Assembly (NCBI RefSeq): GCF_003149145.1
Contig: NZ_QGDQ01000012.1
Coordinates: 62,001-126,000, forward strand
Direction of reading: 5' to 3'
Source: Quadrisphaera granulorum
GTDB lineage: Bacteria; Actinomycetota; Actinomycetes; Actinomycetales; Quadrisphaeraceae
DNA: 64,000 bases
Shown: positions 475 to 61,366 of the stretch, one piece after another
How positions within the stretch are numbered: the stretch's first letter is position 1
Layout of the letters: every line of letters starts with the position of its first letter
Made by a program: the position numbers and the translations under genes
Notes under the pieces: generated by a model
The model's database searches: none
Told to the model about the DNA's origin: nothing
Seen by the model: only the letters and a program-made list of their open reading frames with translations

Positions 475-541
475 GGTGATCATGGGCGTCCGCCACCCGA
501 GTGACGCTCCCCTCCCCGTGATCATGGACCTCCGGAACGCC
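475..541. repeat. GTGATCATGG repeat, locus 1
   Basis: Two direct copies of the GTGATCATGG unit lie here. The first (475-501) is followed by GCGTCCGCCACC and the second (517-541) by ACCTCCGGAAC. Read on the minus strand, this is the same order of units as the right half of the loci at 50441, 57095 and 58901: a CCGGAGGTCCATGATCACGG unit and a GGTGGCGGACGCCCATGATCAC unit. It lies between treZ and the methyltransferase gene. Confidence 0.7.
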
Positions 542-562
542 GTGGGTGGATCCGCCCCCCTT

Positions 563-621
563 GAATGGCACGGAGTGGCCCCGTGCCAGGAGGAGTGTCA
601 CGGGGTGGCCCTGTGCCATTC
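563..621. repeat. Inverted repeat around GGCACGG/CCGTGCC units
   Basis: Two 26-nt half-elements (563-588 and 596-621) face each other. GAATGGCAC at 563 pairs with GTGCCATTC at 613-621, and each half contains a second GTGGCC/CGTGCC unit. The plan of short palindromic units in an inverted set resembles the GTGATCATGG loci, but the sequence is unrelated. It lies 10 nt after the methyltransferase stop codon, so it could also act as its terminator; there is no T-tract. Confidence 0.55.
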
Positions 622-630
622 GAGGGTGGG

Positions 631-1371
631 TCAGGCGCGGGCCCGCAACACCTGAGTCGGCATCCATGGGCCGGTCCACCACCCGCGCCACCCGGCGTCG
701 CGTGGTCCCTCGACGTCCAGGCCAGCCTCGCGCAGCGCATCGGCGTACTCGGAGGTGTGCTGGATGTCCATGATCGCGACGCGGCCGCCCGGGGCAAGCA
801 CCCGCACCACCTCGCGCACGGCCCGGCGGCGATCGGCGGGTGAAGGCAGGTTGTGGATCGACAGGCTCGCCGTCACCAGCTCGAACGAGGCGTCGGAGAA
901 CGGGAGCTCACGCATGTCCGCCGTGACGTAGCGCACCCGGTCGGTCACAGCCGCGGCACTGGCGTTGCGCGCGGCGGCGTCGGGGGAGTTGCCGGACTGG
1001 TCGGCCGTGTGCCACAGATCCACACCCGTCACGTGAGCCCCGGGGAACCGTCGGGCGGTCATGATGGCGACGGCGCCGCGGCCGCACCCGATGTCGAGCA
1101 CGCGTGCAGGCGCGGGGGCGCCGTCGTCGAGCAGGTCACTCCAGAGCTGGAACTTGCCGCGCACGCTGGTGTGCAGATGCACCGCAGCGCCTGCGGCGTT
1201 GCCCAGTGCGCCGAGCAGCAGCAGGGTGCCGAGTGGCTGCGCCCATGGCCTGCGGACGCGCGCCGCGAGGGCCGCCCCCGCGGCGGCAGACGCTGCGGCA
1301 AGGCCCACCCATAGCCGCGGCACCGCGGGTGCGTCGATGCCGTAGGACCCTGCGGGTCTGCACGTGGCCAT
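631..1371 (-). CDS. Membrane-anchored class I SAM-dependent methyltransferase
   Basis: Predicted methyltransferase of about 246 residues. Two hydrophobic segments near the N-terminus (LWVGLAAASAAAGAALAA and PLGTLLLLGALGNAAGAAV) should anchor it to the membrane. The catalytic domain has SAM motif I VLDIGCGRGAVA, an acidic VTGVDLW strand II, and TADMRELPFSDASFELV as motif II/III. The start is taken as ATG 1371, which has AGGACGG upstream; the TTG at 1404 overlaps the divergent promoter and has no ribosome site. It diverges from a PadR regulator across a 55-nt gap, a classic regulator-target pair. The substrate is not evident; small lipids or quinones are possible because of the anchor. Confidence 0.75.
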   Translation of the reverse strand: MATCRPAGSYGIDAPAVPRLWVGLAAASAAAGAALAARVRRPWAQPLGTLLLLGALGNAAGAAVHLHTSVRGKFQLWSDLLDDGAPAPARVLDIGCGRGAVAIMTARRFPGAHVTGVDLWHTADQSGNSPDAAARNASAAAVTDRVRYVTADMRELPFSDASFELVTASLSIHNLPSPADRRRAVREVVRVLAPGGRVAIMDIQHTSEYADALREAGLDVEGPRDAGWRGWWTGPWMPTQVLRARA

Positions 1372-1426
1372 GTCGTCGCCGTCCTGCCTGGGGTCGATAC
1401 TCAAGTTTTAGTAAGCGTGTACCGAC

Positions 1427-1975
1427 ATGAGGGCTATGTCCAGGACCACCACCCGACTGATGGTGCTGGGTGTCATCGCGCACCGGCAGCCCATCGGCGG
1501 TTACGGCGTCGAGGCGGTGCTGCGCGAGTGGGCCGTCGAGCGGTGGACCACCATTGCCCCGGCGTCGATCTACCAGCAGCTCAAGACGCTCGAGTCGGCC
1601 GGCTCTATCCACCGCACGAGCGGCGACGGCTCACGGGCAGCGCTTTTCACCTGCACCGACGACGGGTGGGAGGAGCTGCGCCGCCTCTGTCGATCGCTGC
1701 TTGACGACGACGTACGCCCGCTCGGCCTGGTGCCGCTGCTGCACTTCACGCCCGTCCTGCCCACCGCTGAGCTGGTCGCCGGGCTGGAGCGGCGGATCAA
1801 CCACATCGACGCCGCCCTTGCGCACGAGGAAGACGTCCTGGCGCTGGCCGGCTCGCGCGGGCCGGCGCACGTCGTCGAGATCTTCCGGCTGACCGTGCAC
1901 GCCCTGCGGGCCGAGCGCACCTGGAGCCAGGAGTTCATCGGACGGCTGCGCGCCGGCGAGCGAGCCGGGAGCTGA
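1427..1975 (+). CDS. PadR-family transcriptional regulator
   Basis: A 182-residue DNA-binding regulator. The N-terminal winged helix matches PadR: RLMVLGVIAHRQPIGGYGVEAVLREW, then APASIYQQLKTLESAGSI as the recognition helix region. A C-terminal helical dimerisation half (residues about 95-180) contains GLERRINHIDAALAHEEDVL. The family usually represses a neighbouring gene in response to a small ligand. Here the divergent methyltransferase is the obvious target, and the 55-nt shared promoter region holds an AT-richer stretch (TTTTAGTAAG) unusual for this DNA. The start could be ATG 1427 or ATG 1436. Confidence 0.85.
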   Translation: MRAMSRTTTRLMVLGVIAHRQPIGGYGVEAVLREWAVERWTTIAPASIYQQLKTLESAGSIHRTSGDGSRAALFTCTDDGWEELRRLCRSLLDDDVRPLGLVPLLHFTPVLPTAELVAGLERRINHIDAALAHEEDVLALAGSRGPAHVVEIFRLTVHALRAERTWSQEFIGRLRAGERAGS

Positions 1976-1981
1976 CGCGGA

Positions 1982-2629
1982 TCAGACGCGGCCCGTCCAG
2001 GTCAGCGACTGCAGGTCGGCCTTGTCGATGTAGAGGCCGCCGCCGAGGTGGTCGATCTCGTGCTGCATGATCCGCGCCGACCAGCCGTGGAACACCTCGT
2101 CGAAGGCGCGGCCCGCCTCGTCCTGACCGACCACGCGCACCGACCGGAAGCGCGCCACCTCGGCCTCGTACCCGACCACCGAGAGGCACCCTTCCTCGAA
2201 CACCACGCGCTCGGCCTCCTCCACGGACACGGGCGCTCCCGAGGCGTCCACAGGGGAGTAGGACGGGTTCACGATCACCCGGAACGGAAGGTCGGAGCGT
2301 TCGCGCGGGTCGTCGTCGTCATCGCCGGAGTCTTCGACGACGGCGAGGGCCAGCCCCAGCCCGATCTGCGGCGCCGCGAGCCCCACGCCCGGCGCGGCGT
2401 GCATCGAGACCTTCATCGCCTCCACGAGGTCGGCCATGAGCTCGGGCGAGAGCTCACCGTCGTAGGGCTGGGCGACCTCCCGCAGCACCGGGTGCCCCGC
2501 CTGCACGATGGGCAGCGGCTGCGGTCCGCGCAGCAGCTTTCCCACCGCCTTGCGGAGGTCCTTGCTGCTCATGGGACGGCGGATGCCGTCCACGACGCTG
2601 GTGGGGCTCGACTGCTGGGCCATGCTCAC
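1982..2629 (-). CDS. def: Peptide deformylase
   Basis: Removes the formyl group from the initiator methionine of new proteins, a metal-dependent cytosolic reaction. The three family motifs are present: GVGLAAPQIG (motif 1), EEGCLSV (motif 2, Cys metal ligand) and QHEIDHL (motif 3, HExxH ligands and catalytic Glu). The protein is 215 residues with an N-terminal extension of about 35. A GTG at 2629 overlaps the treY stop codon (GTGA), and ATG 2623 lies two codons downstream, so translational coupling to treY is likely. Its position at the end of a glycogen/trehalose operon is functionally odd. It may be one of several deformylases in the genome. Confidence 0.92.
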   Translation of the reverse strand: MSMAQQSSPTSVVDGIRRPMSSKDLRKAVGKLLRGPQPLPIVQAGHPVLREVAQPYDGELSPELMADLVEAMKVSMHAAPGVGLAAPQIGLGLALAVVEDSGDDDDDPRERSDLPFRVIVNPSYSPVDASGAPVSVEEAERVVFEEGCLSVVGYEAEVARFRSVRVVGQDEAGRAFDEVFHGWSARIMQHEIDHLGGGLYIDKADLQSLTWTGRV

Positions 2630-5253
2630 GGCGCAGCATCTTCCCCCACGGCCGCCGTGGCGGCGGCAGCCACCTCGCTGGAGCCCTCGCGGACCAGCAG
2701 CGCGACCGGCATCGAGGCCAGCAAGCGCGCGAGCTGGATGGCGCCGCCGTCGTGGAGGGCTCCGGTGAGCAGGTCACGCCATGCGCCGGGGCCGTCCTGG
2801 CCGGGACGGGCCTCCGGGAGCACCACGGTGTGCTGCCCCCAGCCGCCGAGCCGCTCCAGCGAGGCCGCCAGGCGGGTGGCCACGACCACCACCTGCGGCA
2901 CCCCGCCGTCCAGCTCGGTCGTGCCGCGGCCGAAGGCCACGGCGTTGCCCGTGGAGGTCGCCACGGCCGTGTACGTCGCGCCTTCGCCGACGAACCACTC
3001 GGGGTGCTCGCGGCGCAGTCGCAGCGCGCGGGAGGTGACGAGCAGCTTCTCGTCGGACAGGTCGCCAGGTCGGGCGCCGGAGTCGAGTCGTGCCAGACGA
3101 CGACGGCGCTCGGGGTAGTCGACGGGGCGCCGGTTGTCGGGGTCCACCAGGGACAGCGAGACCACTTCGGTGCCCTGGTAGACGTCCGGGACGCCCGGCA
3201 TCGTCAGCTGCACGAGCTTCTGCCCGAGCACGCCCACGCGCACCGGCCCGGCGATGCGCTGGGAGAACGCCTCGACGGCTTCCAGGATGGCCGCGTCTCC
3301 GAGCACGCCCATCGCGAAGGACCTCACGGCGTCCTCGTAGGCCTCGTCGGGGTTCGTCCACGTGGTGTGGAGCTTCGCCTCGCGGATGGCCTTCTCGAGG
3401 TAGCCCAGCAGGCGTTCACCGCTGATGGGTCCGCCGTCGCGACCGGATCCCCAGGTGCCGAGCAGGGTCTGCCAGATGAGGTGCTCGGTCTGACCGTCCA
3501 GCTCCTGGTGACGGTGCTCGGCGGCCAGGCGCCGCCACTGTCGCAGCGCCTCGGCGAACTCCAGTGGCAGCTCCGAGAGGACGGCGAGCCGCGCCCGTAC
3601 GTCTTCGTCGCGCTTGGTGTCGTGCGTGGTGAGCGTGGTCATGGCCACGGGCCAGTCGCGCACCTGCTGCGCGCAGTAGGCGTGGAACTCCTCCGGCGCC
3701 ACGCCCACGCGGTCGGGGTCTCCGCCGACCTCGTTGAGCCCGGCCAGGCGGAACCAGCGGTAGAACGCCGTGTCCTCCACACCCTTGGCCATGACGGGTC
3801 CGCACGTCTGCTGGAACCTCACCACCAGCTCGGCGCGGTCGGCGTCGGCCAGCCGCCCCGCGCTGCCGACCTCGCGGCCCAGCAACAGGTCGACGACGAC
3901 GGCGAGGGTGTCCCACCGCTCCTCCGGCAGGTGCTCGCGTGCCTGCTCCGCGGCCTCCTCGAGCACCCGCTGGGCCTCGGCCGGAGCCGGCTCGCCGGGC
4001 ACCACGTAGGCGCGGTAGCGCGGGAAGGCCACGAGCAGCTCCACCACGCACTCGCGCAGGGCCCGCTCGGTGTGGTCGCGCAGGCGGACGTCCGCCGCGA
4101 CGATCTGCACGAGCAGCTGCACGAGGCGATGCACCTCGGCGTACAGCCCCGCCTCGACCACCTCCCGCTTGGCGGCGGCGACGACGGCGGGGAAGCCCGT
4201 CGCTTCGCCCGTGACCTCCGCGAGCAGCGCCGACAGCGGCCCGGCGCCGGCCGGGTCCACGAAGAGCCCGCCGACGCGCAGCAGTGCGTCGTAGCCGGTG
4301 GTGCCGGCCACGGGCCAGTCGTCCGGGAGTACCTCGGAGCCCTCGAGGATCTTCTCCACCACGACCCACGCCCCGCCGGAGTGCTCGGCGAGGCGGCGCA
4401 CGTACCCGCGCGGGTCGGCGAGGCCGTCGGGGTGGTCGATGCGCAGCCCCTCCAGCTCCCCGGACGCGAGCAGCTCCAGCAGCAGTTCGTGGGTGGCGTC
4501 GAAGACCTCCGGGTCCTCCACGCGGATGGCGGCGAGGGTGTCGACGTCGAAGAACCGGCGGTAGTTCAACTCTTCGTCGGCCACGCGCCAGTGCGCCAGG
4601 CGGTACCACTGCCGGTCGACGAGCTCGGCCAGCGGCAGCGACTCCGTGCCAGGACGCACCGGGAAGACGTGGTCGTAGTAGCGCAGCAGTGGCTCGCTGC
4701 CAGAGCTGTCGAGCTTCAGCTCCCCGGAGCCGAGCACCTGCCCGATCCGCGAGCCGAGCACCGGCATGAGGATCGCGTGGCCCGACGTCCACCAGTCGAC
4801 GTCGAACCAGCGCGCGTACGGCGAGTCCGGTCCGTCACGCAGCACCGACCACAGGGCTCGGTTGAGCCGCGCCGGGGTCGGTACGGCCATGTGGTTGGGG
4901 ACGACGTCGGCGACGGCGGCCAGGCCCCTGCTGCGCAGGCGCTTCACCAGCACGTCGAGCGCCTCGCGGCCTCCGGCCTCGGGGTTGACGCGGCTGTGGT
5001 CGACGACGTCGTAGCCGTGCGCCGAACCCGGCGTCGGCTCCAGCAGCGGCGACAGGTAGGCGTGGGAGACGCCGAGGGCGTCGAGGTGGTCGACGATGGC
5101 GGTGGCGTCGTCGTACCCGAACTCCGGCCTGATCTGCAGCCGGTAGGTCGAGACAGGGACCGGCTTGCCGGGCGCGGGGCGATGCTGGGCGGCGGAGCCG
5201 CCCTGTCCGTCCGTGCGTCCGTCGGGGCGCGCCTCAGGTGCGGTGTCGCTCAC
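2626..5253 (-). CDS. treY: Maltooligosyl trehalose synthase
   Basis: Converts the reducing-end alpha-1,4 bond of maltodextrins to the alpha,alpha-1,1 bond of trehalose. The 875-residue product has the long GH13_26 architecture: STYRLQIRPEFGYDDA at the start, YLSPLLEPTPGSAHGYDVVD, VVPNHMA, then the nucleophile region GLRIDHPDGLADP near residue 272 and VVVEKILEGSE with the acid/base Glu. TTHDTKRDEDVRARL supplies the third carboxylate. The start is GTG 5253, which overlaps the glgX stop codon (GTGA) and has GGAGG five bases upstream. The open frame runs further upstream, but that part lies inside glgX and is discarded. It is coupled to glgX and def on either side. Confidence 0.95.
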   Translation of the reverse strand: MSDTAPEARPDGRTDGQGGSAAQHRPAPGKPVPVSTYRLQIRPEFGYDDATAIVDHLDALGVSHAYLSPLLEPTPGSAHGYDVVDHSRVNPEAGGREALDVLVKRLRSRGLAAVADVVPNHMAVPTPARLNRALWSVLRDGPDSPYARWFDVDWWTSGHAILMPVLGSRIGQVLGSGELKLDSSGSEPLLRYYDHVFPVRPGTESLPLAELVDRQWYRLAHWRVADEELNYRRFFDVDTLAAIRVEDPEVFDATHELLLELLASGELEGLRIDHPDGLADPRGYVRRLAEHSGGAWVVVEKILEGSEVLPDDWPVAGTTGYDALLRVGGLFVDPAGAGPLSALLAEVTGEATGFPAVVAAAKREVVEAGLYAEVHRLVQLLVQIVAADVRLRDHTERALRECVVELLVAFPRYRAYVVPGEPAPAEAQRVLEEAAEQAREHLPEERWDTLAVVVDLLLGREVGSAGRLADADRAELVVRFQQTCGPVMAKGVEDTAFYRWFRLAGLNEVGGDPDRVGVAPEEFHAYCAQQVRDWPVAMTTLTTHDTKRDEDVRARLAVLSELPLEFAEALRQWRRLAAEHRHQELDGQTEHLIWQTLLGTWGSGRDGGPISGERLLGYLEKAIREAKLHTTWTNPDEAYEDAVRSFAMGVLGDAAILEAVEAFSQRIAGPVRVGVLGQKLVQLTMPGVPDVYQGTEVVSLSLVDPDNRRPVDYPERRRRLARLDSGARPGDLSDEKLLVTSRALRLRREHPEWFVGEGATYTAVATSTGNAVAFGRGTTELDGGVPQVVVVATRLAASLERLGGWGQHTVVLPEARPGQDGPGAWRDLLTGALHDGGAIQLARLLASMPVALLVREGSSEVAAAATAAVGEDAAP

Positions 5254-7418: not shown

Positions 7419-7587
7419 GGCGTCCTCTCACGGGCGACGGTGGTGCAGCCCGCCGCGTGAGCGGCAGGCAGGGGTCATCCTGGCCGAGCGCGCGCTCTGC
7501 CGCCTCGTGGACTGCCAGGACGCGCCTCGAGGAGCGTCCTGCGGCCACATGGGAGGGGGTGGTTCGACTCAGCCCCCTGGCGTGAAG

Positions 7588-7593
7588 TAATGT
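7588..7593 (+). promoter_or_regulatory. Putative -10 box for the tRNA cluster
   Basis: TAATGT lies 29 nt before tRNA-Gly, with a weak TTCGAC at 7563-7568 as a possible -35 (spacing 19). This is the most AT-rich part of the 203-nt gap between glgX and the tRNAs; nothing else is recognisable in that gap. Confidence 0.4.
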
Positions 7594-7621
7594 TCTTCTC
7601 GTTCGGCCGCGAGGCCGGTAC

Positions 7622-7694
7622 GCGGACGTGGCTCAGTTGGTAGAGCATCACCTTGCCAAGGTGAGGGTCGCGGGTTCGAATCCCGTCGTCCGCT
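7622..7694 (+). tRNA. tRNA-Gly (GCC)
   Basis: Complete cloverleaf. The acceptor GCGGACG pairs with CGTCCGC, the anticodon stem TCACC/GGTGA encloses loop TTGCCAA (anticodon GCC), and the T-arm is GCGGGTTCGAATCCCGT. The discriminator base is T and no CCA is encoded. First of three tandem tRNAs. Confidence 0.96.
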
Positions 7695-25685: not shown

Positions 25686-26618
25686 ATGTCCGAGTCCTCC
25701 ACCTCCGCCTCCGCACCGCAGGTCAGCGGCGCCGCGCCCCAGGTCGGTACCTCCCGCGTGAAGCGCGGCATGGCCGAGATGCTCAAGGGCGGCGTGATCA
25801 TGGACGTCGTCACCGCTGAGCAGGCGCGCATCGCTGAGGACGCCGGCGCCGTCGCCGTCATGGCCCTGGAGCGCGTGCCCGCGGACATCCGCGCGCAGGG
25901 CGGCGTGGCCCGGATGAGCGACCCCGACCTCATCGACGCCATCCAGGCCGAGGTCTCCATCCCGGTCATGGCCAAGGCCCGCATCGGCCACTTCGTCGAG
26001 GCGCAGGTGCTGCAGAGCCTCGGGGTCGACTACGTCGACGAGTCCGAGGTGCTCACCCCGGCCGACTACACGCACCACATCGACAAGTGGCAGTTCACGG
26101 TGCCCTTCGTCTGCGGCGCCACCAACCTCGGCGAGGCGCTGCGCCGCATCACCGAGGGCGCGGCGATGATCCGCTCCAAGGGCGAGGCAGGCACCGGTGA
26201 CGTCTCCAACGCCACCACGCACATGCGCACCATCCGTGCGGAGATCGCCCGGCTGACCTCGCTCAGCAAGGACGAGCTCTACGTGGCCGCCAAGGAGCTG
26301 CAGGCCCCCTACGACCTCGTCGTCGAGGTCGCTGAGGCCGGCCGCCTGCCCGTCGTGCTGTTCACCGCCGGCGGCATCGCCACCCCGGCCGACGCCGCGA
26401 TGATGATGCAGCTCGGCGCCGACGGTGTCTTCGTCGGGTCCGGCATCTTCAAGTCGGGCAACCCGCAGCAGCGTGCCGAGGCGATCGTGCAGGCCACCAC
26501 CTTCCACGACGACCCCGACGTCATCGCCAAGGTCTCCCGCGGCCTGGGCGAGGCCATGGTCGGCCTGAACGTCGAGGCCATCCCCGAGCCTCACCGCCTG
26601 GCGCAGCGCGGCTGGTGA
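25686..26618 (+). CDS. pdxS: Pyridoxal 5'-phosphate synthase, lyase subunit
   Basis: Condenses ribose 5-phosphate, glyceraldehyde 3-phosphate and ammonia to pyridoxal phosphate; ammonia comes from PdxT. The 310-residue TIM barrel shows [17 protein letters not shown], the catalytic Lys in [36 protein letters not shown] (phosphate and Lys149-type region) and [16 protein letters not shown] 25686 fits the -10 box; ATG 25677 would add three residues, and the longer frame from 25638 is not supported. The partner pdxT is 5 kb downstream rather than adjacent, with eight unrelated genes in between. Confidence 0.96.
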
Positions 26619-29355: not shown

Positions 29356-30132
29356 CTACCCCTCGAAGCCCGCGCTCACGGTGACTGTGCCGGGGGCGAC
29401 CTCGGTGTAGCCGGCGTCGCGGATGTCCACCCGCTGCGACGCCGGCAGCACCGGCGCTCCCTGGAGGACGACGACGGCGAGGGCCGTGGCCACGTCGGGG
29501 TCCGCGCTGGCCAGCCATGCGGAGACGGTGGCCCGGTCGAGTCGTTCCAGCGCCAGCTGCGCCGCGTGCCCGACCTGCGCGACGGCCTTGCCCGTGCTCA
29601 TGGTCACGCCGGGGGCGAGCCGGATCGTCAGCACCGGCCCACCCCGTCCGTGATCATGGGCGTCCGCCACCACCGAGGGTGGCGGACGCCCATGATCACG
29701 GGGGGAGGGGTCGGGGTCGGTGAGGTCCAGACCGCCGACCTGCAGGTCGCGCAGGAGCTTCGGGGAATCGTCGCGCGGGTGCGGCGCGAACGCCCTCACT
29801 TGCGCCGGCGGCGTCTGCCCGTCACCGCCCGCGCGGGCCTCGACGTGCGGCAGCTCTGCCGTCCTGTCCCACCGCGACCCCCGCGCGCGCCGCCCGATCT
29901 TGCGGATCCGCTGGCCGCGCCAGCGGGCGACGGCGTCGTGGAAGACGCCGTCGGGGTCGGTGGTCCGTTCGTCGATGAGCAGGGCGACGACGGCGCGCGC
30001 CGCCGCCACCAGCACGTCCGTGTGCGCGGGCGGTCCGCCGGCGCTCTCGCGCTCGACCCGCACCACGAGCGAGAGCGCCCACGGTTCCTCTTCCGGTGGC
30101 AGCCACTCCTGCTCGGCGTTCTGCTCGCTCAT
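29356..30132 (-). CDS. PTH2-family peptidyl-tRNA hydrolase with an in-frame repeat insertion
   Basis: A 258-residue protein. The C-terminal 90 residues are a PTH2 domain with the hallmark [20 protein letters not shown] (catalytic Lys and His near residue 180). The N-terminal part ([54 protein letters not shown]) is the actinobacterial extension of this family. Between them, residues about 144-162 ([18 protein letters not shown]) are encoded by a complete GTGATCATGG inverted repeat at 29648-29701 that keeps the frame. It sits in a linker just before the first strand of the PTH2 core. The ATG overlaps the kynureninase stop (ATGA). Confidence 0.82.
29648..29701. repeat. GTGATCATGG repeat, locus 2 (inside PTH2 gene)
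   Basis: CCGTGATCATGGGCGTCCGC at the left pairs perfectly with the complementary right arm around a short ACCGAG loop, 24 bp per arm. It is 54 nt long, a multiple of three, and is read through as 18 codons of the PTH2 gene. Confidence 0.92.
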
Positions 30133-31424
30133 GTGACGGTCGGCCGCTCGGACAGCTCCGCTGCCTCGTGCTCGCCGCCGTCCAGGACGGCCCTCAGCGC
30201 GACGACGGCGGCCAGCACGTCTGCGTGGGACAGGTACAGCGGTGCGATGCCCCACCTCATGACGTCCGGCGCGCGGAAGTCGCCTTCCACGCCGCGCGCG
30301 TGCAGCGCCCTGACGAGCCCCCACGACTGCGGGTGACGCAGCGCCAGGGCGCTGCCCCGCCGCTCGGGTTCACGCGGCGTGACGACCTCCACCTCCGGCA
30401 CGAGCGCGTCCAGGGCCTCGAGCGCGAAACCCGTCAGCGACAGCGACTTCGCGCGCACGGCCTGCACCTCGACGTCGTCGTACGCGGTCAGAGCCGCCTC
30501 GAGGGCCAGCATGCTGATCATCTGCGGGGTGCCCGTGCGGGCCACGGCGATGTCGGTGGCGGGGGTGTATTCGGCCGTCATGGCGAACGGCTGCGCCGCG
30601 GAGTTCCAGCCCGGGATGGGGTTGGCGAAGGCGGCCTGCAGTCGGTGCGGCACGTAGATCCACGCCGGGGCGCCCGGGCCGCCGTTGAGGAACTTGTAGC
30701 TGCAGCCGACGGCGTAGTCGACGTCGTTCGCGTCGAGGTCAGCGGGGACCACCCCGGCGGAGTGGCACAGGTCCCACAGCACGAGCGCCCCGACGTCGTG
30801 GGCCGCGCGGGTCAGACCGGGGAGGTCCCACAGCTCCCCGGTGCGGTAGTCGACCTGGCTGAGGGTCACCAGCGCGACCTCCCCGCCGCGCGCGGCGAGC
30901 ACGGCAGGCACGTCCGGGGGAGAGGCCAGCACCACCTCCCAACCGGCGAGGCGAGCGTCGGAAGCCAGGACGTACAGGTCGGTGGGGAAGGAGGCCGGGT
31001 CGGCGACGACGACGCGGCGTGCGCCGTCCGCGCCGTCCGCGCTGCGCCGCCGGGTCTCGGCGGCCGCCGCCAGGTGGACCTTGTGCAGCTGCACGCTGGT
31101 GCAGTCGCCCGCCACCACCTGGCCAGGCGCAGCGCCGAGCAGCTCGCCGATGCGGTCACCGACGCGCTGCGGCGCCGCCCACCAGCCAGAGGTGTTCCAG
31201 CCCCCGACCCGCGAACGGCCCCACTGCCGCTGGACGGCGTCGGCGACGGCGGGGGCCACCGCCCGCGGCAGCGCTCCGAGGCTGTTGCCCACCAGGTACA
31301 CCGAACCGTCATCAGGCAGGTCGAACCTGTCGCGGACGTGGCCGAGGGAGTCGGCTGAGTCCAGCGCGGCAGCCTGTCCGAGCAGGGGAGCCGGCGCGCT
31401 CAGGTGATCGGCGGCGGTGCTCAC
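30129..31424 (-). CDS. kynU: Kynureninase
   Basis: PLP enzyme that splits kynurenine to anthranilate and alanine. The 431-residue aspartate-aminotransferase-fold protein has [34 protein letters not shown] (Asp for the pyridine N), the Schiff-base lysine in [17 protein letters not shown], and [21 protein letters not shown] near the end, all typical of kynureninase. GTG 31424 is divergent from pdxT with overlapping upstream regions. No tryptophan 2,3-dioxygenase lies nearby. The downstream PTH2 gene overlaps it by four bases. PLP dependence may explain proximity to pdxT. Confidence 0.93.
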
Positions 31425-49126: not shown

Positions 49127-49181
49127 CCGTGATCATGGACAGTCGGCCACCACCCAGGTGGCCGACTGTCCATGATCACGG
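49127..49181. repeat. GTGATCATGG repeat, locus 3
   Basis: A perfect 25-bp inverted repeat beginning CCGTGATCATGGACAGTCGG, with loop ACCCA. It lies between the divergent YkvA and ClC genes. The right arm contains an ATG (49172) in frame with ClC. Confidence 0.93.
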
Positions 49182-49207: not shown

Positions 49208-50446
49208 GTGCCGCTGCCGCTGAGGTGGGCCGCCGCCGTGGCGGCCACCGGCGTGGTCGCCGGACTCGCTGGGGCGGCGCTCATGGGGGTGCTGCGGCTC
49301 GTCCAGCACCTCGCCTACGGTCTGTTCGACCACGGCTTCGGAGCGGCCGTGGTCGCCGCCGACCCCGCCCGGCGGGTAGCGGCGATGGCTGCTGGCGGTC
49401 TCGCGGTGGGGCTCGGCTGGTGGGCGCTGCAGCGATGGACGTCGCCGGTGCGCGAGGCGGAGGACGTCGTCGGCGGGCCTCTTGGCGGGCGGATGCGGCT
49501 GCGATCGACGGCGGCGGACGCGGTGCTGCAGGTGGTGGCCGTGGGGGCGGGCGCATCGCTGGGGCGCGAAGGTGCCCCGCGTCAGGTCGGTGCGGCGGCG
49601 GGCGGCTGGTTGGCGGCGCGGTGCGGGCTGGAAGCTCAGGCGCAGCGGGTGCTGCTCGCGTGCGGCGCCGGCGCCGGGCTCGCTGCTGTCTACGACGTGC
49701 CGCTCGGGGGAGCGTTGTTCACCCTCGAGGTACTGCTGACCACCCTGGCACCGGTCGCGGTGCTCTCCGCTGTCGCGACGTCGGTCATCGCTGCCATGGT
49801 GGCCTGGCCGTTCGTGGGGATGGGACACGTCTTCACCGTCAGCCACCTCACGTCGCCGACGGCGTCGCTCGTGGTGGCAGCCGTCGTCGTCGGCCCTCTC
49901 GCGGCAGGGGTGGGCCTCGCGTTCCGCGCGCTCGCCGGATGGGCACGACGGCTGGCGCCGCGCGGGTGGCGGCTGCCGGTGGCCACCACGCTGGCCTTCG
50001 CGGTGGTCGGGCTGGTCGCCGTCCCGCTGCCGCAGGTGCTCGGCAACGGGCGCGCGCCCGCCGAGTTGGCGTTCGTCGGACAGCTGGGACTGGTCACTGC
50101 CGTGTTGCTGCTGGTCGCCCGGCCTCTGGCCACTGCCCTGTGTCTCGGTTCAGGGGCGAGGGGTGGCCTGCTCACGCCCGCGGTTGCACTGGGTGCGCTG
50201 CTCGGACTGCTGGGGGCTGCGGCCTGGTCGCAGCTGTGGCCGGGAGCGCCGGCGTCGGCGCTCGCGGTGGTCGGGGCGGCGGCGGTGCTGAGCGTGACGC
50301 AGCGTGCTCCGCTGACCGCCACCGTGCTGCTGCTGGAGTTCACCGGCAGTGCGACGACGCTGCTGGTGCCGGTGCTTGCAGCCGTGACGACGGCGACGGC
50401 GACGGCGCGCCTGGTCGGCTCCCGCCCCTCCCCAACCCCGCCGTGA
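49208..50446 (+). CDS. ClC-family chloride channel/transporter
   Basis: About 412 residues and ten or more hydrophobic segments. ClC signatures are LGREGAPRQVGAAAGGWLA (the GREGP-type selectivity loop, with Ala for Pro order changed), ACGAGAGLAAVYDVPLGGALFTLE (GAAAGLAAAFNAPLAG-type) and GSGARGGLLTPAVALG (GxFxP-type). No C-terminal CBS domains are present. GTG 49208 (GGGTGG upstream) is preferred; the frame is also open from GTG 49190 and from ATG 49172 inside the repeat. The TGA stop is part of repeat locus 4 (CCGTGATCATGG). Confidence 0.85.
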   Translation: MPLPLRWAAAVAATGVVAGLAGAALMGVLRLVQHLAYGLFDHGFGAAVVAADPARRVAAMAAGGLAVGLGWWALQRWTSPVREAEDVVGGPLGGRMRLRSTAADAVLQVVAVGAGASLGREGAPRQVGAAAGGWLAARCGLEAQAQRVLLACGAGAGLAAVYDVPLGGALFTLEVLLTTLAPVAVLSAVATSVIAAMVAWPFVGMGHVFTVSHLTSPTASLVVAAVVVGPLAAGVGLAFRALAGWARRLAPRGWRLPVATTLAFAVVGLVAVPLPQVLGNGRAPAELAFVGQLGLVTAVLLLVARPLATALCLGSGARGGLLTPAVALGALLGLLGAAAWSQLWPGAPASALAVVGAAAVLSVTQRAPLTATVLLLEFTGSATTLLVPVLAAVTTATATARLVGSRPSPTPP

Positions 50447-50536
50447 TCATGGACGCTGGCCACCTTACGGATCCGTAGGGTGGCGGACGCCCATGATCAC
50501 GGGGGGAAGGTGCTCCGGAAGTCCATGATCACGGGG
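50441..50536. repeat. GTGATCATGG repeat, locus 4
   Basis: The left unit CCGTGATCATGGACGCTGGC (50441) faces TGGCGGACGCCCATGATCAC ending at 50500. The loop holds its own palindrome, ACGGATCCGT. A third unit GGAAGTCCATGATCACGG follows at 50517-50534. The first bases include the ClC stop codon. The two arms differ more than at other loci. Confidence 0.88.
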
Positions 50537-54505: not shown

Positions 54506-54599
54506 CGCTGGCCGTTGGTTGCTGGACGACGACGACGACGGGCGCGGGCGCGGTCGGCCGTCGGCCGCTGCGCTGGGCCGACCCGCCTCATCAGCCGGA

Positions 54600-54692
54600 A
54601 TTCCGCCCCTTCGCGCGAGTTCCCGCCCCATCGCGTCCCTCGATGGGGCGGGAACTCGGTTCATGGGGCAGGAACTCGGGCGAAGGGGCGGA
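54600..54692. repeat. Inverted set of CCCGCCCC/GGGGCGGG units
   Basis: GAGTTCCCGCCCCAT (54617-54631) faces ATGGGGCGGGAACTC (54643-54657) and ATGGGGCAGGAACTC (54663-54677). An outer pair TTCCGCCCCTTCGC (54601-54614) and GCGAAGGGGCGGA (54680-54692) encloses them. It is the most regular nested set of its type and lies between convergent genes. Confidence 0.8.
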
Positions 54693-54712
54693 TCGGCGGA
54701 TTTCCGCCGTGC

Positions 54713-55099: not shown

Positions 55100-55148
55100 G
55101 TCCACGGGATCCAGCCTGGCATGGAGGCCCGACCGCCCGGTGGCGCAG

Positions 55149-55279
55149 AGGCAGGCGCGTCATCGTCGGTGTGGGAGGCGCCTGCCTGCTCGATGACGGG
55201 GGAGCCTCAGGCCCGGTGGGGAGCCTGATGTCCGCTTCCAGGGCCGGATGCGGACGGGAGGCTCCTCACCGGACGTCCG
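55149..55279. repeat. Cluster of interlocked inverted repeats before the aldo-keto reductase
   Basis: AGGCAGGCGC (55149-55158) and CGTCATCG (55158-55165) are followed by their complements in the same order, GCGCCTGCCT (55178-55187) and CGATGACG (55191-55198). The two pairings therefore interlock rather than nest. GGAGCCTCAGG and GGGGAGCCTGATG then face GGGAGGCTCC, and GGACGTCC at 55271-55278 is palindromic. No gene is seen in the 293-nt gap. Confidence 0.6.
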
Positions 55280-55401
55280 ATTCCCCACTCGCGCTGGCCG
55301 AGTGGCGCAAACTCGCTTGATCGTGGGCGGGGGCTGCTGGCCGTCGTCGTCCCAGGGTCCTCTGAGAGCGTTCACAGCGGGCGGGTCGTAGCGTGCGGAC
55401 C

Positions 55402-56409: not shown

Positions 56410-56416
56410 CCAGCCG

Positions 56417-57100
56417 GTGACCAGCGTCGGCGTGCCCTCGCCCGGGCAGGACGGCGTCGCTCGTCCCGCCCGGCCGTGGGGCGCGCCCGGGCGCTGGTGG
56501 CCACGATGGGCGTGGGGTAGCGAGCTCGCCCTCGCGTACTCCGGCCTCGTGGTCGTCGTTGCGGTGGTGCTCAGCCAGCTGGCGCCCGCGGCGCATCGCG
56601 CGGCAGTGCTCGCGGCGAGCACCAACCTCGAGAACCTCCGGCACACGCCGGCTGCGGTGCTGCTGTTGTCCGCGTTCGTCGTGCAGACCCGCGCCGAGGT
56701 GCTGCTGCTCGTGCCGCTCGTCGTCGTCATGACGCTGTGCAGCCGTTGGATCGGGCGCTCGTCCACGGTGGTCGCGGCACTGTTCGGGCACGTCGGCGCC
56801 ACGCTGCTCGTCGCGACGTTCCTGGCGGCCGGGGTGAGGCGCGGGTTCGTCTCGCACAGCGTCGTGACGGCGCCGGACGTCGGCGTCAGCTACGCCCTCG
56901 CGGGGGTGGCGGGGCTGCTCGCCGCCGTCGTCCCGCGGTGGTGGCGGTGGGTTTACGTGGTCGGAGGGCTGGCGACGCTCGTGGTGCTCATCAGTGCCGA
57001 CACCGACTTCACCAACGTCGGTCACCTGCTCGCGTTCACGACGGGCCTTGGCCTTGCCGTGGTCTCCGTCCCGTCCCGCCCTCGCATCGTCTCGCCGTGA
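56417..57100 (+). CDS. Rhomboid-like membrane protein
   Basis: A 227-residue protein with about six hydrophobic segments. It shows the actinobacterial rhomboid-like pattern STNLENLRHTPAAVLLLSAFVV (a conserved leading motif), LFGHVGATLLVATFL, DVGVSYALAGVAGLLA and NVGHLLAFTTGLGL. The Ser in GVSYA and the His in GHLLA sit where the protease dyad would be, although the Ser motif is not the canonical GxSG. It may be protease-competent or a pseudoprotease. Its TGA stop is contributed by the CCGTGATCATGG of repeat locus 5. Confidence 0.75.
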   Translation: MTSVGVPSPGQDGVARPARPWGAPGRWWPRWAWGSELALAYSGLVVVVAVVLSQLAPAAHRAAVLAASTNLENLRHTPAAVLLLSAFVVQTRAEVLLLVPLVVVMTLCSRWIGRSSTVVAALFGHVGATLLVATFLAAGVRRGFVSHSVVTAPDVGVSYALAGVAGLLAAVVPRWWRWVYVVGGLATLVVLISADTDFTNVGHLLAFTTGLGLAVVSVPSRPRIVSP

Positions 57101-57181
57101 TCATGGGCGGTCGGCCACCCGGTGAGGTGGCCGACCGTCCATGATCACGTTGGGAAAGTGCTTCGGAAGTCCATGATCACG
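57095..57181. repeat. GTGATCATGG repeat, locus 5
   Basis: The left unit CCGTGATCATGGGCGGTCGG pairs with its complement ending at 57149 around loop CGGTGA, with one or two mismatches. A third unit CGGAAGTCCATGATCACG lies at 57164-57181, after GTTGGGAAAGTGCTT. It overlaps the rhomboid-like gene stop codon. The remaining 140 nt to the permease gene hold no clear signal beyond a ribosome site. Confidence 0.92.
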
Positions 57182-57320
57182 TTGGGGAAGTGGGGGTGGG
57201 CTGCGCTGTGCGGAATCCGGACAGCGCGTGCGTCCGGCGGATGGTGGCCCTCCCGCGCCGTCCCTAGCGTCCGGGGTCACCTCGACCAGCTCGAGCCACC
57301 CTCTCCCTGAAGGACGGACG

Positions 57321-58769
57321 ATGGCTGACAGCACTCCCACGGATGCGGCCCTGCGGAGCCGCATGGAGGACCACGCGCTCACCGCGGTCCCCGAGTCCGA
57401 GCGCCGCTCGGGCTGGGGCCTGATGACCAACACCGCCGGCATCGCCTCGACCCTCATCCAGCTCGCCATCGGCGGCACCGTCACGCTGATCGCCGGTGTG
57501 TGGGCGGGCCTGGCGGCGGGCGTCGTCGTCGCCATCTTCGGTGGTGTTCTGGGGTGGCTCGTCGGGCACGTGTCGTACCGGTCGGGCACGTCCAGCACGG
57601 TGACCGCGCGCTTCTACGGGCTGGGCACGCGTGGCTCGGCGCTGGCCTCCCTGATCTTCGCGTTCATGATCCTGGGCTTTCTCGCGCTGGAGAACGCGTT
57701 GCTCTACTACGGCACGCTGTTCATGTTCGGATGGGCGCCGACGACGGCGAACGCCATCGCCATCTACGGGCTGCTGACGCTGGCGTGGATCGGGCTGACC
57801 GTCTTCGGGTTGCCGATCGTGCAGCGCACCTCGACGGTGCTGCTGGTCGCGTTCGTGGCGCTCACGGTGGTCCTGACGTTCGTGGCGCTCAACCAGTCCG
57901 GGATGACGCTGGGTCAGGTGTTCTCCGGCGGTCCGGTGGTGCCGGGCTTCGACAGTGACGTCACCCGGTTCACCACGGTGCTCTCGATTCTCGCGGGTTC
58001 AGCGGGGGCGCTGGCTCTTGTCGACGCCGACTTCGCGCGGTACGCCCGCTCCACCAAGGACGTCGGCATCCTCGCCGTCGGTGGCGCGATCATGATCGAC
58101 GTCGTTGCCGTGGTCCTCGGGACGGTCATCGTGCACGCCGGCTCGGGTGTCGTCACCGAGTTCCTCACGGCCAACCCGGCCGTGGCAGCCACCCAGGGTG
58201 GCGAGACGGTGGCCGACAAGGTGGCGTGGATGATCGCCAACAATGCGGGCGCGTTCTTCGTGGTGCTGGCCGGTGGGCTCGGCTTCGTGCTGATGTACGT
58301 CGCGCAGGTCAAGGCGCAGGTGCTCAACACCTACAGCGGGTCGCTGGCGCTGACCAACCTCGCTGACGGCATCGTCGGGCGAAGCCCCAGCCGGGTGGTC
58401 ATGGTGGTGATCGGCAACCTCGTGGCGCTGGCGATGGTCGCCGGAGACATCCTCGGCCTCATCGGCAGCTACCTGGGTCTCCTGGGCGTCACGACGACGG
58501 CGCTGGCCAGCGTGATCATCGCTGACTTCTTCATCGTTCGCGGACGGCGCGTGGCCCACCCGGCGGAGACCGAAGCGGTGAACTGGGCCGGTGTCCTCTC
58601 CGTGGTCGGTGCTTCGGTGCTCGGCGGGGTGCTGCAAGAGACCGGTGTCACGCCGCTGGGCTTCGTGGTGGCGCTCGTGGCGGTGCTCATCGCATACCCG
58701 GTGCTGCGCACGACCGTGCTCAAGCCGGCGAGTTCCCAGGTGGCTGCGCCCCGCGTGCCTGTCCCCTGA
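57321..58769 (+). CDS. NCS1-family nucleobase/cofactor permease
   Basis: A 482-residue transporter with about twelve membrane helices. The NCS1 (cytosine, uracil, allantoin, thiamine) signature appears as SGWGLMTNTAGIASTLIQLAIGGTVTL at the start, VDADFARYARSTKDVG in the middle (the ADYARY-type motif) and NTYSGSLALTNLADGIVG. The end carries FIVRGRR. It probably imports a pyrimidine-, purine- or hydantoin-like ring compound with sodium or protons. Neighbouring oxidation and hydrolysis genes fit use of the imported ring. ATG 57321 follows AAGGACGG. Confidence 0.88.
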   Translation: MADSTPTDAALRSRMEDHALTAVPESERRSGWGLMTNTAGIASTLIQLAIGGTVTLIAGVWAGLAAGVVVAIFGGVLGWLVGHVSYRSGTSSTVTARFYGLGTRGSALASLIFAFMILGFLALENALLYYGTLFMFGWAPTTANAIAIYGLLTLAWIGLTVFGLPIVQRTSTVLLVAFVALTVVLTFVALNQSGMTLGQVFSGGPVVPGFDSDVTRFTTVLSILAGSAGALALVDADFARYARSTKDVGILAVGGAIMIDVVAVVLGTVIVHAGSGVVTEFLTANPAVAATQGGETVADKVAWMIANNAGAFFVVLAGGLGFVLMYVAQVKAQVLNTYSGSLALTNLADGIVGRSPSRVVMVVIGNLVALAMVAGDILGLIGSYLGLLGVTTTALASVIIADFFIVRGRRVAHPAETEAVNWAGVLSVVGASVLGGVLQETGVTPLGFVVALVAVLIAYPVLRTTVLKPASSQVAAPRVPVP

Positions 58770-58784
58770 CCCTCACGCTTCCCA

Positions 58785-58986
58785 CCGTGATCGAGCCTGT
58801 TGCGAAATGGCCATTTCGGGCCCTTCGGCGCATGAGGGCAAAGCTCTGACCTGCGGTGATTCTCAGCGCAGGTCGCCTCAGATCGCATTTCGCAACAGGC
58901 TCGATCATGGACGGTCGGCCACCCGCAAGAGGTGGCCGACCGTCCATGATCACGGTGGGAAGTGTTTCGGAAGTCCATGATCACGG
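58785..58986. repeat. GTGATCATGG repeat, locus 6, nested with a second inverted repeat
   Basis: A perfect 21-bp inverted repeat (58789-58809 and 58886-58906, beginning GATCGAGCCTGTTGCGAAAT) encloses a 76-nt loop. The loop includes CGAAATGGCCATTTCG (58803-58818, a perfect palindrome sharing bases with the left arm). Its right arm ends in CGATCATGG, the first unit of a locus-5-like element: CGATCATGGACGGTCGGCC, its complement ending near 58955, and a third CGGAAGTCCATGATCACGG at 58968-58986. It fills the gap between convergent permease and AraC genes. Confidence 0.92.
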
Positions 58987-58991
58987 AGGGG

Positions 58992-60026
58992 TTAGCGAGT
59001 GCGGCGCAGGGTGGCGCTGGGAGACTCGCCGAAGGCCTCCCGGTACTGCACCGACAGCCGGCCCAGGTGCGTCAGCCCCCAGCGGGCCGCGGCCTCGGTG
59101 ACGGACTCGGCAGCCCCGGCCGACAGGTCTTCCCGCACGCGGTGCAGCCGTACGGTCCGCAGGTGGGCCATCGGCGTCTCGCCGAGGTGCTGGGCGTAGC
59201 CCGCCTGCAGCGCCCGGACCCCCACGCCCACCGCGGCGGCGATGTCGGCCGTGGTCAGCGGCTCGTCGCAGTGCTCCTCCACGTACCGCACCGCGCGCGC
59301 CACGCAGCTGCGGTTGGCGGCGGCGCGCAGCGCGCCCGGCTCCTCGCCCCCGCTGGCGGCGTGCTGCGCGCTGATCAGGGAGTCGACCAGGGCGACGGCG
59401 AGCGACCGCGTGGCCAGCGGCACCGGGCCGGCGCTGCCGAGCGCCTCGACGTCGTCGAGGGCCACGTCGAGCAGCCGGCGGAACGCCGCTCCGGCGCCCG
59501 TGGTCAGGTCCAGGACGGGTGCGATCCCAGCCCCCGCTGTGGCCCGCCCCGCGAGCCCGGCCAGGCCCGCCATCTCCCGCCGACGGTGCACGAGCGCCGA
59601 CGGCACCTGCAGCATCACGCGCGGGGTGCCCGGGGCGTACCGCATCCGCCACGGCGAACCGGGCCCGCACACCAGGGCCGACCCGACGACGGCGACACCG
59701 CGCCGCGTGCCACGACCGCCACCGCCGTCGTCCACCGACGCCGCCCCCGCCAGGGGGACCTGCACGAGCCAGAACGGCATCCCCGCCACGCGTACCTCGA
59801 CGTCGGAGCCGTAGTCGATCCAGTGCAGCGCCACCTCCGCGAAGGGCGCGCGGTGGTGGCGCAGTGAGAAGCCACCTCGGCCGCGCTCGTCGTCGTCGTG
59901 AGCCCACCGACCGCGGGGGAAGAGGTCGTGAGGGCACAGCTCACCCGCGACGCCCTCGCGGGCCTCGTCGAGGTCGGTGGTGGCCAGTAGTCGGTGCGCC
60001 GCGAGGCGCGGGGTGAGGACGTTCAC
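58992..60026 (-). CDS. AraC-family regulator of the catabolic cluster
   Basis: A 344-residue regulator. The N-terminal half resembles AraC_binding_2 sensing domains (VNVLTPRLAAHRLLATTDLDEAR, FWLVQVPLAG). The C-terminal 100 residues are two helix-turn-helix units: EPLTTADIAAAVGVGVRALQAGYAQHLGETPMAHLRTVRLHRVREDL and TEAAARWGLTHLGRLSVQYREAFGESPSATLR (in part). GTG 60026 has GGAGG upstream. It is divergent from the flavin monooxygenase gene. Three copies of a shared motif at cluster promoters are its likely binding sites. Confidence 0.87.
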   Translation of the reverse strand: MNVLTPRLAAHRLLATTDLDEAREGVAGELCPHDLFPRGRWAHDDDERGRGGFSLRHHRAPFAEVALHWIDYGSDVEVRVAGMPFWLVQVPLAGAASVDDGGGGRGTRRGVAVVGSALVCGPGSPWRMRYAPGTPRVMLQVPSALVHRRREMAGLAGLAGRATAGAGIAPVLDLTTGAGAAFRRLLDVALDDVEALGSAGPVPLATRSLAVALVDSLISAQHAASGGEEPGALRAAANRSCVARAVRYVEEHCDEPLTTADIAAAVGVGVRALQAGYAQHLGETPMAHLRTVRLHRVREDLSAGAAESVTEAAARWGLTHLGRLSVQYREAFGESPSATLRRTR

Positions 60027-60063
60027 GGGACCTCCGTCAGTGGAGAACCTCGACTGGACAGTG

Positions 60064-60083
60064 CGTCGCTCGCGGGATAGCGG
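60064..60083. promoter_or_regulatory. AraC-site candidate 1 (CGCTnnCGGGATAG motif)
   Basis: CGTCGCTCGCGGGATAGCGG lies between the divergent AraC and flavin monooxygenase genes. It shares the CGCT-n2-CGGGATAG core with the sites at 63057 and 63095. The GGGATAG is 9 nt before GTG 60089 and 36 nt before ATG 60116. Confidence 0.55.
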
Positions 60084-60115
60084 GCCCCGTGGGCATGCGC
60101 GCATCCTCCCGCAGC

Positions 60116-61216
60116 ATGAGCACACCGATCACCTCCGCGAGCCACTTCCGCCTGGGGTTGTTCTCCTCGAACTGCTCGGGTGGCCTAGCCGTCACGAAGA
60201 TCCCCGAGCGCTGGTCGGCGTCGTGGGAGGACAACCTGGCGATGGCGAAGCTGGCCGACGAGGTCGGCATCGACTTCGTGCTGCCGATCGCCCGGCTCAT
60301 CGGCTACGGCGGCGAGACCAACTTCCACGAGAGCGTGCTCGAGCCGATCCCGTGGGCGACGGCGATCGTGGCCGCCACGAAGCGGCTGACGGCGTTCGCC
60401 ACGGTGCACACGGCGTTCAACCACCCGGTGGTGGTGGCCAAGCAGCTCGCGACCATCGACGCGATGGCACCCGGACGCGTGGGCCTCAACGTGGTGGCCG
60501 GGTGGAACCAGCCCGAGTACGAGGCGATGGGCGTGGACCTGCCCACCGCGCACGACGCCCGCTACGCCTACGCGCAGGAGTGGTTCGACGCGGTGGCCAC
60601 GCTGTGGTCGCGTGAAGGGCGCTACGACCTGCCGGGGGAGTACTTCGACCTGCGCGGCGTGGAGTCCAGCCCCAAGCCGGCTGCGGGGCGGGTGCCGATC
60701 CTCAACGCCGGGTCGAGTCCGCAGGGCAAGGCGTTCGCGGCGCGCAACGCCGACTTCGTCTTCACCATCGTCGCCGGCCCGGAGCAGGGGGCTTCGGTGG
60801 TCGCGGAGGTGACCGCGGCGGGGCGGGCGCTGGGGCGGTCGCCCGGGGTGCTGACGCCGACGCACGTGGTGTGCCGGTCCACGCACGCCGAGGCGGAGGA
60901 GTACCTGCGGTACTACGCGGAGGAGAACGCCGACTGGGCCGCCGTCGACAACCTCATGCGGCTGCAGGGCATGCACGCGCAGTCGTTCTCGCCGGAGATG
61001 CTCGCGACGTTCCGCGGGCGCTTCGCCGCTGGTCACGGGACCTGTCCGATCATCGGGACGCCGGACGAGGTGGCCGACGAGATCGAGAAGTTCGCGACGG
61101 CGGGCTTCGGTGGGATCACGATGTCGTTCGTCGACTACACGGGCGAGCTGGAGCACTTCGCCGCCGAGGTGATGCCGCGCCTGGAGAAGAAGGGCCTGCG
61201 TCCGGCGCCCGCCTGA
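60116..61216 (+). CDS. LLM-class flavin-dependent monooxygenase, RutA-like
   Basis: A 366-residue FMN-dependent oxygenase of the bacterial luciferase-like fold. Family features are FRLGLFSSNCSGGLAVTKIP, MAKLADEVGIDFVLPIARLIGYGGETNFHE (compare the RutA segment [21 protein letters not shown]), ATIDAMAPGRVGLNVVAGWNQPEYEAMGV, and GTPDEVADEIEKFATAGFGGITMSF. RutA opens the uracil ring; related enzymes oxidise sulfones and other ring compounds. ATG 60116 is chosen although there is no Shine-Dalgarno; GTG 60089 is possible and would be leaderless. No flavin reductase gene is seen in the window. Confidence 0.88.
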   Translation: MSTPITSASHFRLGLFSSNCSGGLAVTKIPERWSASWEDNLAMAKLADEVGIDFVLPIARLIGYGGETNFHESVLEPIPWATAIVAATKRLTAFATVHTAFNHPVVVAKQLATIDAMAPGRVGLNVVAGWNQPEYEAMGVDLPTAHDARYAYAQEWFDAVATLWSREGRYDLPGEYFDLRGVESSPKPAAGRVPILNAGSSPQGKAFAARNADFVFTIVAGPEQGASVVAEVTAAGRALGRSPGVLTPTHVVCRSTHAEAEEYLRYYAEENADWAAVDNLMRLQGMHAQSFSPEMLATFRGRFAAGHGTCPIIGTPDEVADEIEKFATAGFGGITMSFVDYTGELEHFAAEVMPRLEKKGLRPAPA

Positions 61217-61230
61217 CCCCCGCCCTCTGG

Positions 61231-61366
61231 CCGTGATCATGGGAGTTGTGCACGGAACTGACTGTGATCATGGACGTTGTGCGCAGCAGCTGGGTGCCCG
61301 GCAGGGCGCGACGTGCACAACCCCCATGATCACGACCCTCTCTGTGCACAGCGTCCATGATCACGG
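61231..61366. repeat. GTGATCATGG repeat, locus 7 (variant with GTGCAC units)
   Basis: Two left units (61231-61242 and 61263-61274) face two right units (61324-61334 and 61355-61366). The bases next to each core are different from the other loci: GAGTTGTGCACG and CGTGCACAACCC pair, and CGTTGTGCGCAG pairs partly with CTGTGCACAGCG. A 34-nt loop with GCAG-rich sequence separates them. It lies between convergent monooxygenase and FAD oxidoreductase genes. Confidence 0.88.

Follow-up and report, generated by a model that had tools for sequence, protein, structure and literature searches.

Repeat loci in the window

The window analysed here, a 64,000-nucleotide stretch of the Quadrisphaera granulorum genome (contig NZ_QGDQ01000012.1, positions 62,001 to 126,000), carries at seven loci a dispersed repeat built on a 10-bp tag, GTGATCATGG (Table 1). 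Each unit consists of a C-rich tract, the near-invariant tag, and a 12- to 13-nt arm drawn from a few subfamilies. The tag matches exactly at 19 places in the window and at 31 places with no more than one mismatch, against 2.43 expected, and none of 100 shuffles reached 31.

The initial annotation described the seven loci as copies of an inverted-repeat family with hairpins. The tag is indeed present at or beside the described place in all seven, but the first locus is a direct pair, and the locus given as 58901-58986 was incompletely delimited: a 110-bp inverted-repeat insertion (58793-58902) splits its left tag, and the element runs from 58785 to 58984. Six of the seven loci fold better than shuffled sequence (z -5.3 to -12.5), the exception being the first (475-541; z -0.62). 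Of the four loci said to carry a third unit, those at 50441, 57095, and 58901 do so, with the sequence GGAAGTCCATGATCACG, but the first reads GGAGGTCC instead of GGAAGTCC. The copy at 61231 is a nested ++-- array.

Table 1. Repeat units and the inserted element in the window (+ and - in array names give unit orientation; z, folding against shuffles)
Feature	Position	Strand	Details	z
Two direct-orientation units	476..541	+	Tags 476-485 and 518-527, 42 bp apart; arms GCGTCCGCCACC, ACCTCCGGAAC; hairpin absent	-0.62
Inverted pair	29650..29699		Arms GCGTCCGCCACC; inside 322-codon open frame upstream of PTH2 domain	-9.71
Inverted pair	49129..49179		Arms ACAGTCGGCCACC	-12.52
Array +--	50443..50532		Inverted pair 50443-50500 and third minus unit (tag 50523-50532)	-5.39
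Inverted pair and third minus unit	57097..57180		Inverted pair 57097-57148; third tag 57171-57180	-6.57
Array +--, left tag split	58785..58984		CCGTGATC 58785-58792, then GATCATGG from 58903; minus tags 58944-58953, 58975-58984	-5.31 (58896-58990)
MITE-like insertion, 110 bp, inside tag	58793..58902		Ends GAGCCTGTTGCGAAA / TTTCGCAACAGGCTC; GATC at 58789-58792 and 58903-58906	
Nested array ++--	61233..61364		Tags 61233, 61264, 61324, 61355; arms mostly TTGTGCAC type	-8.87

MITE, miniature inverted-repeat transposable element.

A predicted CLC gene terminates at a TGA within the first tag of the 50443 element, whose inverted pair has imperfectly pairing arms, and the predicted gene upstream of the 57097 element ends in the same way. 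The open frame that contains the 29650 pair occupies 29356-30324 on the minus strand. The orthologous gaps in three congeners differ in length by -5, -35, and -23 nt; since these differences are not divisible by three, the frame through the pair is not conserved. A further exact tag, at 25794-25803, lies inside a predicted gene and recurs in congeners together with the surrounding coding sequence, exactly in one and with one mismatch in two more. It is probably a coding coincidence and not a repeat unit; we excluded it as a unit, yet it is retained in the mechanical counts.

Copy number and distribution

The repeat family is real, genome-wide, dispersed, and mostly intergenic. In the window's genome (G000; 4.88 Mb, 86 contigs), exact GTGATCATGG occurs in 405 copies, approximately one per 12 kb, and the 12-mer CCGTGATCATGG in 264, with no copy of either reversed control; inverted pairs of the form GTGATCANGG...CCNTGATCAC number 59. 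A chance or coding artefact of GC-rich DNA, which could account for a tag within a predicted gene such as that at 25794, is already contradicted by the 405 copies against none in the control and retains practically no probability. The 12-mer is also abundant in five congeners (106-183 copies each) and scarce in 33 other sampled genomes of the order (0-7 copies: 0-6 in seven other members of the family and 0-7 in 26 further members of the order). Both the dispersed, repetitive extragenic palindromic (REP)-like character proposed by the initial annotation and its expectation of a raised genome-wide copy number are borne out by these counts and by the intergenic location of 81 of 91 clusters.

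Beyond the genus, 22 of 394 genomes in a class-wide sample have at least one GTGATCANGG...CCNTGATCAC pair, mostly one to three. Smaller sets of tags with other arms occur, among the matches listed, in metagenome-assembled genomes (MAGs) of Frankiales, Geodermatophilaceae, and Streptosporangiaceae and in a few Micromonospora. Tag counts are 49-65 in three Frankiales MAGs, 43 and 26 in two Geodermatophilaceae MAGs, and 79 in one Streptosporangiaceae MAG, against 0 or 1 for the reversed controls. Quadrisphaera sp. INWT6 carries the same arm types as G000. A related set of seven pairs, with ends GTGATCAAGG...CCTTGATCAC, is present in one class member with a 9.8-Mb genome (G375).

Rfam at gathering scores returned only four tRNAs from the window and no match to the repeat family. 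Literature searches by tag sequence (10-mer and 9-mer) and by topic yielded no paper on the GTGATCATGG family within what those searches covered, and the printed passages that matched the 9-mer were 16S primers.

Paired arms and folding

To describe the units, we used a first 1.25-Mb sample of G000, in which C1 and the window were taken whole and the C2-C10 slices were picked for containing tags. It holds 158 exact tags in 91 clusters, of which 37 are single units, 44 are two-unit clusters, and 10 are larger, and the array types seen are +-, -+, +--, and ++--. The frequent arms are GCGTCCGCCACC, GCRGTYGGCCAC, and ACTTCCGGARCA, together with GAGTTGTGCAC or ACGCTGTGCAC. A search outward from the arms recovered 84 copies whose adjacent 12-mer is 0-5 mismatches from the tag (78 at 0-2 and 6 at 3-5), and each base of GATCATGG is retained in at least 94% of them; the other matches form an unrelated class, 7-12 mismatches away.

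The initial annotation held that the arms vary between loci while remaining complementary. This was confirmed on 36 inverted pairs in a sample of the genome. One base distinguishes A- and B-type arms, which are out of register in an alignment, so we tested the arms by permutation instead of counting structures on it. The mean edit distance between arms is 1.64 for 25 +- pairs (0 of 2,000 permutations as good) and 2.18 for 11 -+ pairs (1 of 2,000), compared with 5.67 for 15 -- pairs (932 of 2,000). Within the matched inverted pairs, more than one base type occurs at each of the 12 arm positions. Since inverted pairs match in this test and -- pairs do not, arm complementarity is mainly a property of inverted pairs, with ++ pairs slightly alike. 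A general homogenisation of neighbouring units was rejected, as -- pairs show none and ++ pairs only a little.

Folding gave the same division. Inverted clusters (n=38) have a mean z of -8.9 against shuffles, compared with -0.23 for single units (n=158; TGG plus a 14-nt arm), which rules out a self-hairpin within one unit. The only palindrome within a single unit is the 6-bp tag centre, TGATCA. The complementary variation had been read as compensatory change that keeps the hairpin. The variation itself stands, but complementary arms alone do not prove selection for a hairpin, because template switching inside the palindrome could also produce them.

Position relative to genes

The genomic position of the clusters was determined with gene calls from our own simple predictor. 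In the first sample, 81 of the 91 clusters are intergenic, eight are genic, and two lie at edges. Convergent gaps contain 32 of the 81 intergenic clusters and 16% of the intergenic bases (p 3e-7), and divergent gaps contain 6 of the 81 and 27% of the bases (p 1e-5). The convergent enrichment recurs in a second 1.25-Mb set, made up of sequence from congeners G001, G002, and G004, from INWT6, and from other parts of G000 (17 of 50 clusters against 20% of bases, p 0.014). Units of one orientation between co-directional genes show a weak tendency to follow gene direction, at 20:5 in the first sample (p 0.004).

Other features also relate the units to gene ends. Immediately upstream of 108 outermost tags, a 20-nt stretch contains 51% C and 21% G, compared with 40% and 33% in 395 other 3' untranslated regions, and in 16 units the TGA inside the tag is the stop codon of the predicted upstream gene. 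Paired elements place a GC-rich hairpin shortly after the predicted stop codon, as in intrinsic terminators; no U-tract was seen at the elements on inspection by eye.

A DNA uptake sequence of the Neisseria kind, often paired as a terminator, would likewise be a near-invariant 10-12-mer with frequent inverted pairs in convergent gaps. However, uptake sequences differ from this family on three counts: here there is only about one tag per 12 kb, eight of 91 clusters lie in predicted genes, and the flanks fall into subfamilies. We regard this explanation as very improbable.

Spacing of the tags

A scan of contigs from other lineages for tag pairs, with spacings of 28-58 bp allowed, gave at least 81 stretches. 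The spacing test omitted eight of these loci, mostly from outside Actinobacteria, as presumed chance matches (spacings 36, 32, 28, 45, 33, 39, 54, and 28 bp), and the pairs from the class-wide scan, G375 included, stand outside it. Among the matches listed, 109 inverted pairs from 18 groups are spaced at 30-31 bp (20 pairs), 40-44 bp (62), and 49-52 bp (20), with seven elsewhere, such that 102 of 109 fall into three clusters near 31, 41, and 51 bp. The lineages differ in the spacing they use: 31 bp in three Frankiales MAGs (19 of 20 pairs), 40 bp in another Frankiales MAG (2 of 2) and in Geodermatophilaceae and Streptosporangiaceae MAGs (11 of 12), and 51 bp in Micromonospora (4 of 4). Direct pairs are at 30-32 bp in 64 of 70 cases, and approximately 31 bp corresponds to three helical turns.

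With one value per lineage (18 values, set by hand), the best period is 10.4 bp, and none of 3,000 uniform draws was as strong; the best period is 10.2 bp with all pairs pooled and 10.7 bp with distinct values per lineage. The spacing is suggestive of helical phasing, that is, of DNA binding on one face, and the suggestion weakens when the omitted loci are included.

Such phasing would also be expected if the family were purely an array of DNA sites bound by a nucleoid or topology protein, with arms complementary only through template-switching correction during replication. Besides the spacing near multiples of about 10.4 bp, which is weaker with the omitted loci, this explanation would accommodate a nearly invariant tag beside variable arms, as well as those Streptosporangiaceae pairs that, by eye, hold the 40-bp spacing despite poor arm pairing. 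However, the C-rich flank and the preference for convergent gaps fit transcription ends at least as well, and no binding protein is known. A pure array of this kind seems improbable to us.

Orthologous sites in congeners

Tags are often retained at orthologous sites, and the two arms there can change in concert. In 67 comparisons with both flanks mapped, counted in both directions for each genome pair and including the coding tag 25794, an exact tag was kept in 40 and no exact tag was present in 27; the count left out 162 comparisons with unmapped flanks and 19 in which the flanks were too far apart. An earlier run on one region also gave seven tags with one mismatch, of which four are the coding tag 25794. 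At two orthologous sites (G000 58571 with G004 18536, and G004 73890 with G002 80836, where the centre of the G002 hairpin reads NN), both arms differ between species and are complementary within each. A ++ array present in three species keeps a constant 32-bp spacing with different arms. The site orthologous to the window's 49129 pair holds a pair in G002 and a single unit in G004.

Arm usage differs between species. In the G004 sample, C-type arms follow 16 of 26 tags, compared with 23 of 158 in G000, and A-type arms are the commonest in G002 (7 of 16). These assignments come from a crude classifier, which gave no type to 42 of the 158 G000 arms. One site offers a clean presence/absence comparison: G002 and G004 carry the element, including its C-rich and G-rich flanks, and G001 is cleanly without it. 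No target duplication is evident at that single clean site, the other sites being too diverged to judge.

These comparisons bear on whether the repeat is a MITE or a REPIN (a REP doublet forming a hairpin) whose copies are made in trans by a GTGATCATGG-recognising enzyme, its location at gene ends merely reflecting where insertions are tolerated. Arm subfamilies common to many loci and specific to species, the 27 of 67 two-way comparisons without an exact tag, and the presence of the whole element with its flanks in G002 and G004 and its absence from G001 would all fit such copying. On the other hand, many tags persist at orthologous places, half-decayed copies are few, and the clean site shows no target duplication. 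No Y1 transposase was found in any of the 13 tag-bearing genomes searched, and an IS110 C-terminal domain is present in only three of the six genus genomes. We consider copying in trans by such an enzyme possible but doubtful.

Mobilising enzymes and inserted elements

RAYT transposases are the usual explanation for GTAG-tagged REP repeats. A search for the RAYT-type Y1 transposase domain, PF01797, was positive in the E. coli controls and found none in 13 tag-bearing genomes (six of the genus and seven others, all drafts and one 68% complete), and RAYT was set aside as the mobiliser. IS110 was likewise rejected on the distribution of its C-terminal domain within the genus, though one IS110-type gene lies inside an element: this transposase gene (L156 11620-13300; G000, C6) apparently interrupts a GGGGGCACCTCCCGCTAATG...CGGGGGA hairpin beside a tag.

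None of ten window proteins run against Pfam is a transposase. For an autonomous parent flanked by tags, we inspected by eye the proteins predicted in the first sample between + and - tags 150-3,500 bp apart (36 listings, some repeated). The IS110-type gene was the sole transposase-like one among them, as judged by eye with Pfam for two window proteins only, and an autonomous parent was also rejected. The description of a mobilised REP/MITE-type element is supported in its REP-like part, and mobilisation of the GTGATCATGG repeat stays putative, with no Y1 transposase found in 13 of 13 draft genomes searched, no duplication seen at the clean site, and many tags kept at orthologous places.

The 110-bp MITE is a separate element. 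A search with its ends at up to two mismatches found three copies in G000 (window 58793-58902; L265 11945-12054; C2 17533-17642), and all three are inserted at a tag's central GATC; in one case the tag has one mismatch. Exact tags make up 127 of the 888 intergenic GATC sites in the sample, and three of three copies would fall in them by chance with a probability of about 0.003. No longer element sharing the MITE ends GAGCCTGTTGCGAAA was found in G000 at up to two mismatches.

Relation to known repeats

The family is REP/BIME/REPIN-like (BIME, bacterial interspersed mosaic element). Its inverted doublets form hairpins in extragenic space, as REPINs do, and its units are regularly spaced in alternating orientation, as in BIMEs. 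It differs from GTAG REPs in both tag and RAYT, and from CGTC REPs in the tag: GTGATCATGG stands where a constant GTAG end would be, GTAG occurs only in the loop region of 2 of 15 aligned pairs, and CGTC lies inside paired A-type arms and is not seen as a constant unpaired end.

REPINs (Bertels and Rainey 2011, PMC3116915) are likewise extragenic, of high copy number, and present as hairpin-predicted inverted doublets in several sequence groups per genome; here, by contrast, no RAYT-type Y1 transposase was found, a lone unit does not make a hairpin, and the 10-bp tag is near-invariant. GTAG and CGTC REPs (PMC3733652) likewise combine variable stems with a tag that is constant at one end and are found mostly 3' of genes, in convergent or unidirectional gaps, and the CGTC families are likewise without a dedicated transposase (Di Nocera et al. 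2013, PMC3733652). The present family differs in its tag, GTGATCATGG, in a stem built from two units, and in its hosts, Actinobacteria, a word absent from the main text of that paper. The mosaic arrays, alternating orientation, and regular spacing recall the BIMEs of enterobacteria (PMC2817692), without a GTAG tag or any RAYT found. The MITE within the tag, in three of three copies, recalls the targeting of REPs by some insertion sequences (Tobes and Pareja 2006, PMC1525189), except that the inserted element here is non-autonomous, with no parent found in the genome.

A proposed gene-end element

The reading that we favour is a gene-end element: the tag would be recognised as DNA, and the paired arms would form a hairpin in the transcript. 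This function is deduced from sequence, and we assign it a probability of about one half. In this proposal, two opposite units would form a long, often nearly perfect hairpin, and paired units would serve as boundary elements at gene ends, the transcript hairpin stopping or capping transcription from one or both sides. The tag GTGATCATGG would be the putative DNA binding site of a trans-acting protein, which when bound could act as a roadblock. The arms may have spread between loci through a copying process and been made complementary by selection, template switching, or both.

Several results weigh against this proposal. The gene ends rest on our simple predictor, and in the second set divergent gaps contain 27% of the bases and 8 of the 50 intergenic clusters (p 0.05), with 8 of all 59 clusters located within predicted genes. 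The orientation ratio there is only 9:8 (pooled 29:13, p 0.02), and we therefore regard the bias relative to gene direction as weak. The 13 ++ pairs have some arm likeness, with a mean edit distance of 3.92 (21 of 2,000 permutations as good). As for the spacing, the 18 hand-set lineage values are not all independent; once the omitted loci are restored, the best period becomes 11.0 and 5 of 3,000 random draws are as strong, and 11 taxon groups plus the omitted taxa give 39 of 3,000. The GTGATCAAGG set in G375 is spaced at 35-36 bp in the five pairs listed of its seven.

More tentatively, the family may represent a RAYT-independent REPIN class that extends across several actinobacterial orders. 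Its helix-phased 10-bp tag would be a docking site at gene ends, kept near-invariant by a putative conserved DNA-binding factor, with hairpin arms swapped in matched pairs by species-specific copying. A large family with one tag in several orders, arms that differ in matched pairs at fixed places, and no RAYT found offers a test case for persistence without the known enzyme, and also for separating selection on hairpins from mutational correction of palindromes. Moreover, the tag is a DNA motif that could serve directly for pulling down its binding factor, should there be one.

Other features of the window

Approximately 21.5 kb of G000 (contig C12), from window position 57063 to past the window end, was not found in the G001 stretch examined, where the flanks are 85 bp apart; G004 and G002 present a similar picture, and the start of the segment adjoins the 57097 element. 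A different palindromic repeat (GAGTTCCCGCCCCAT...) occupies window positions 54571-54695 and has matches of about 72-80% at several sites in G000 and its congeners.

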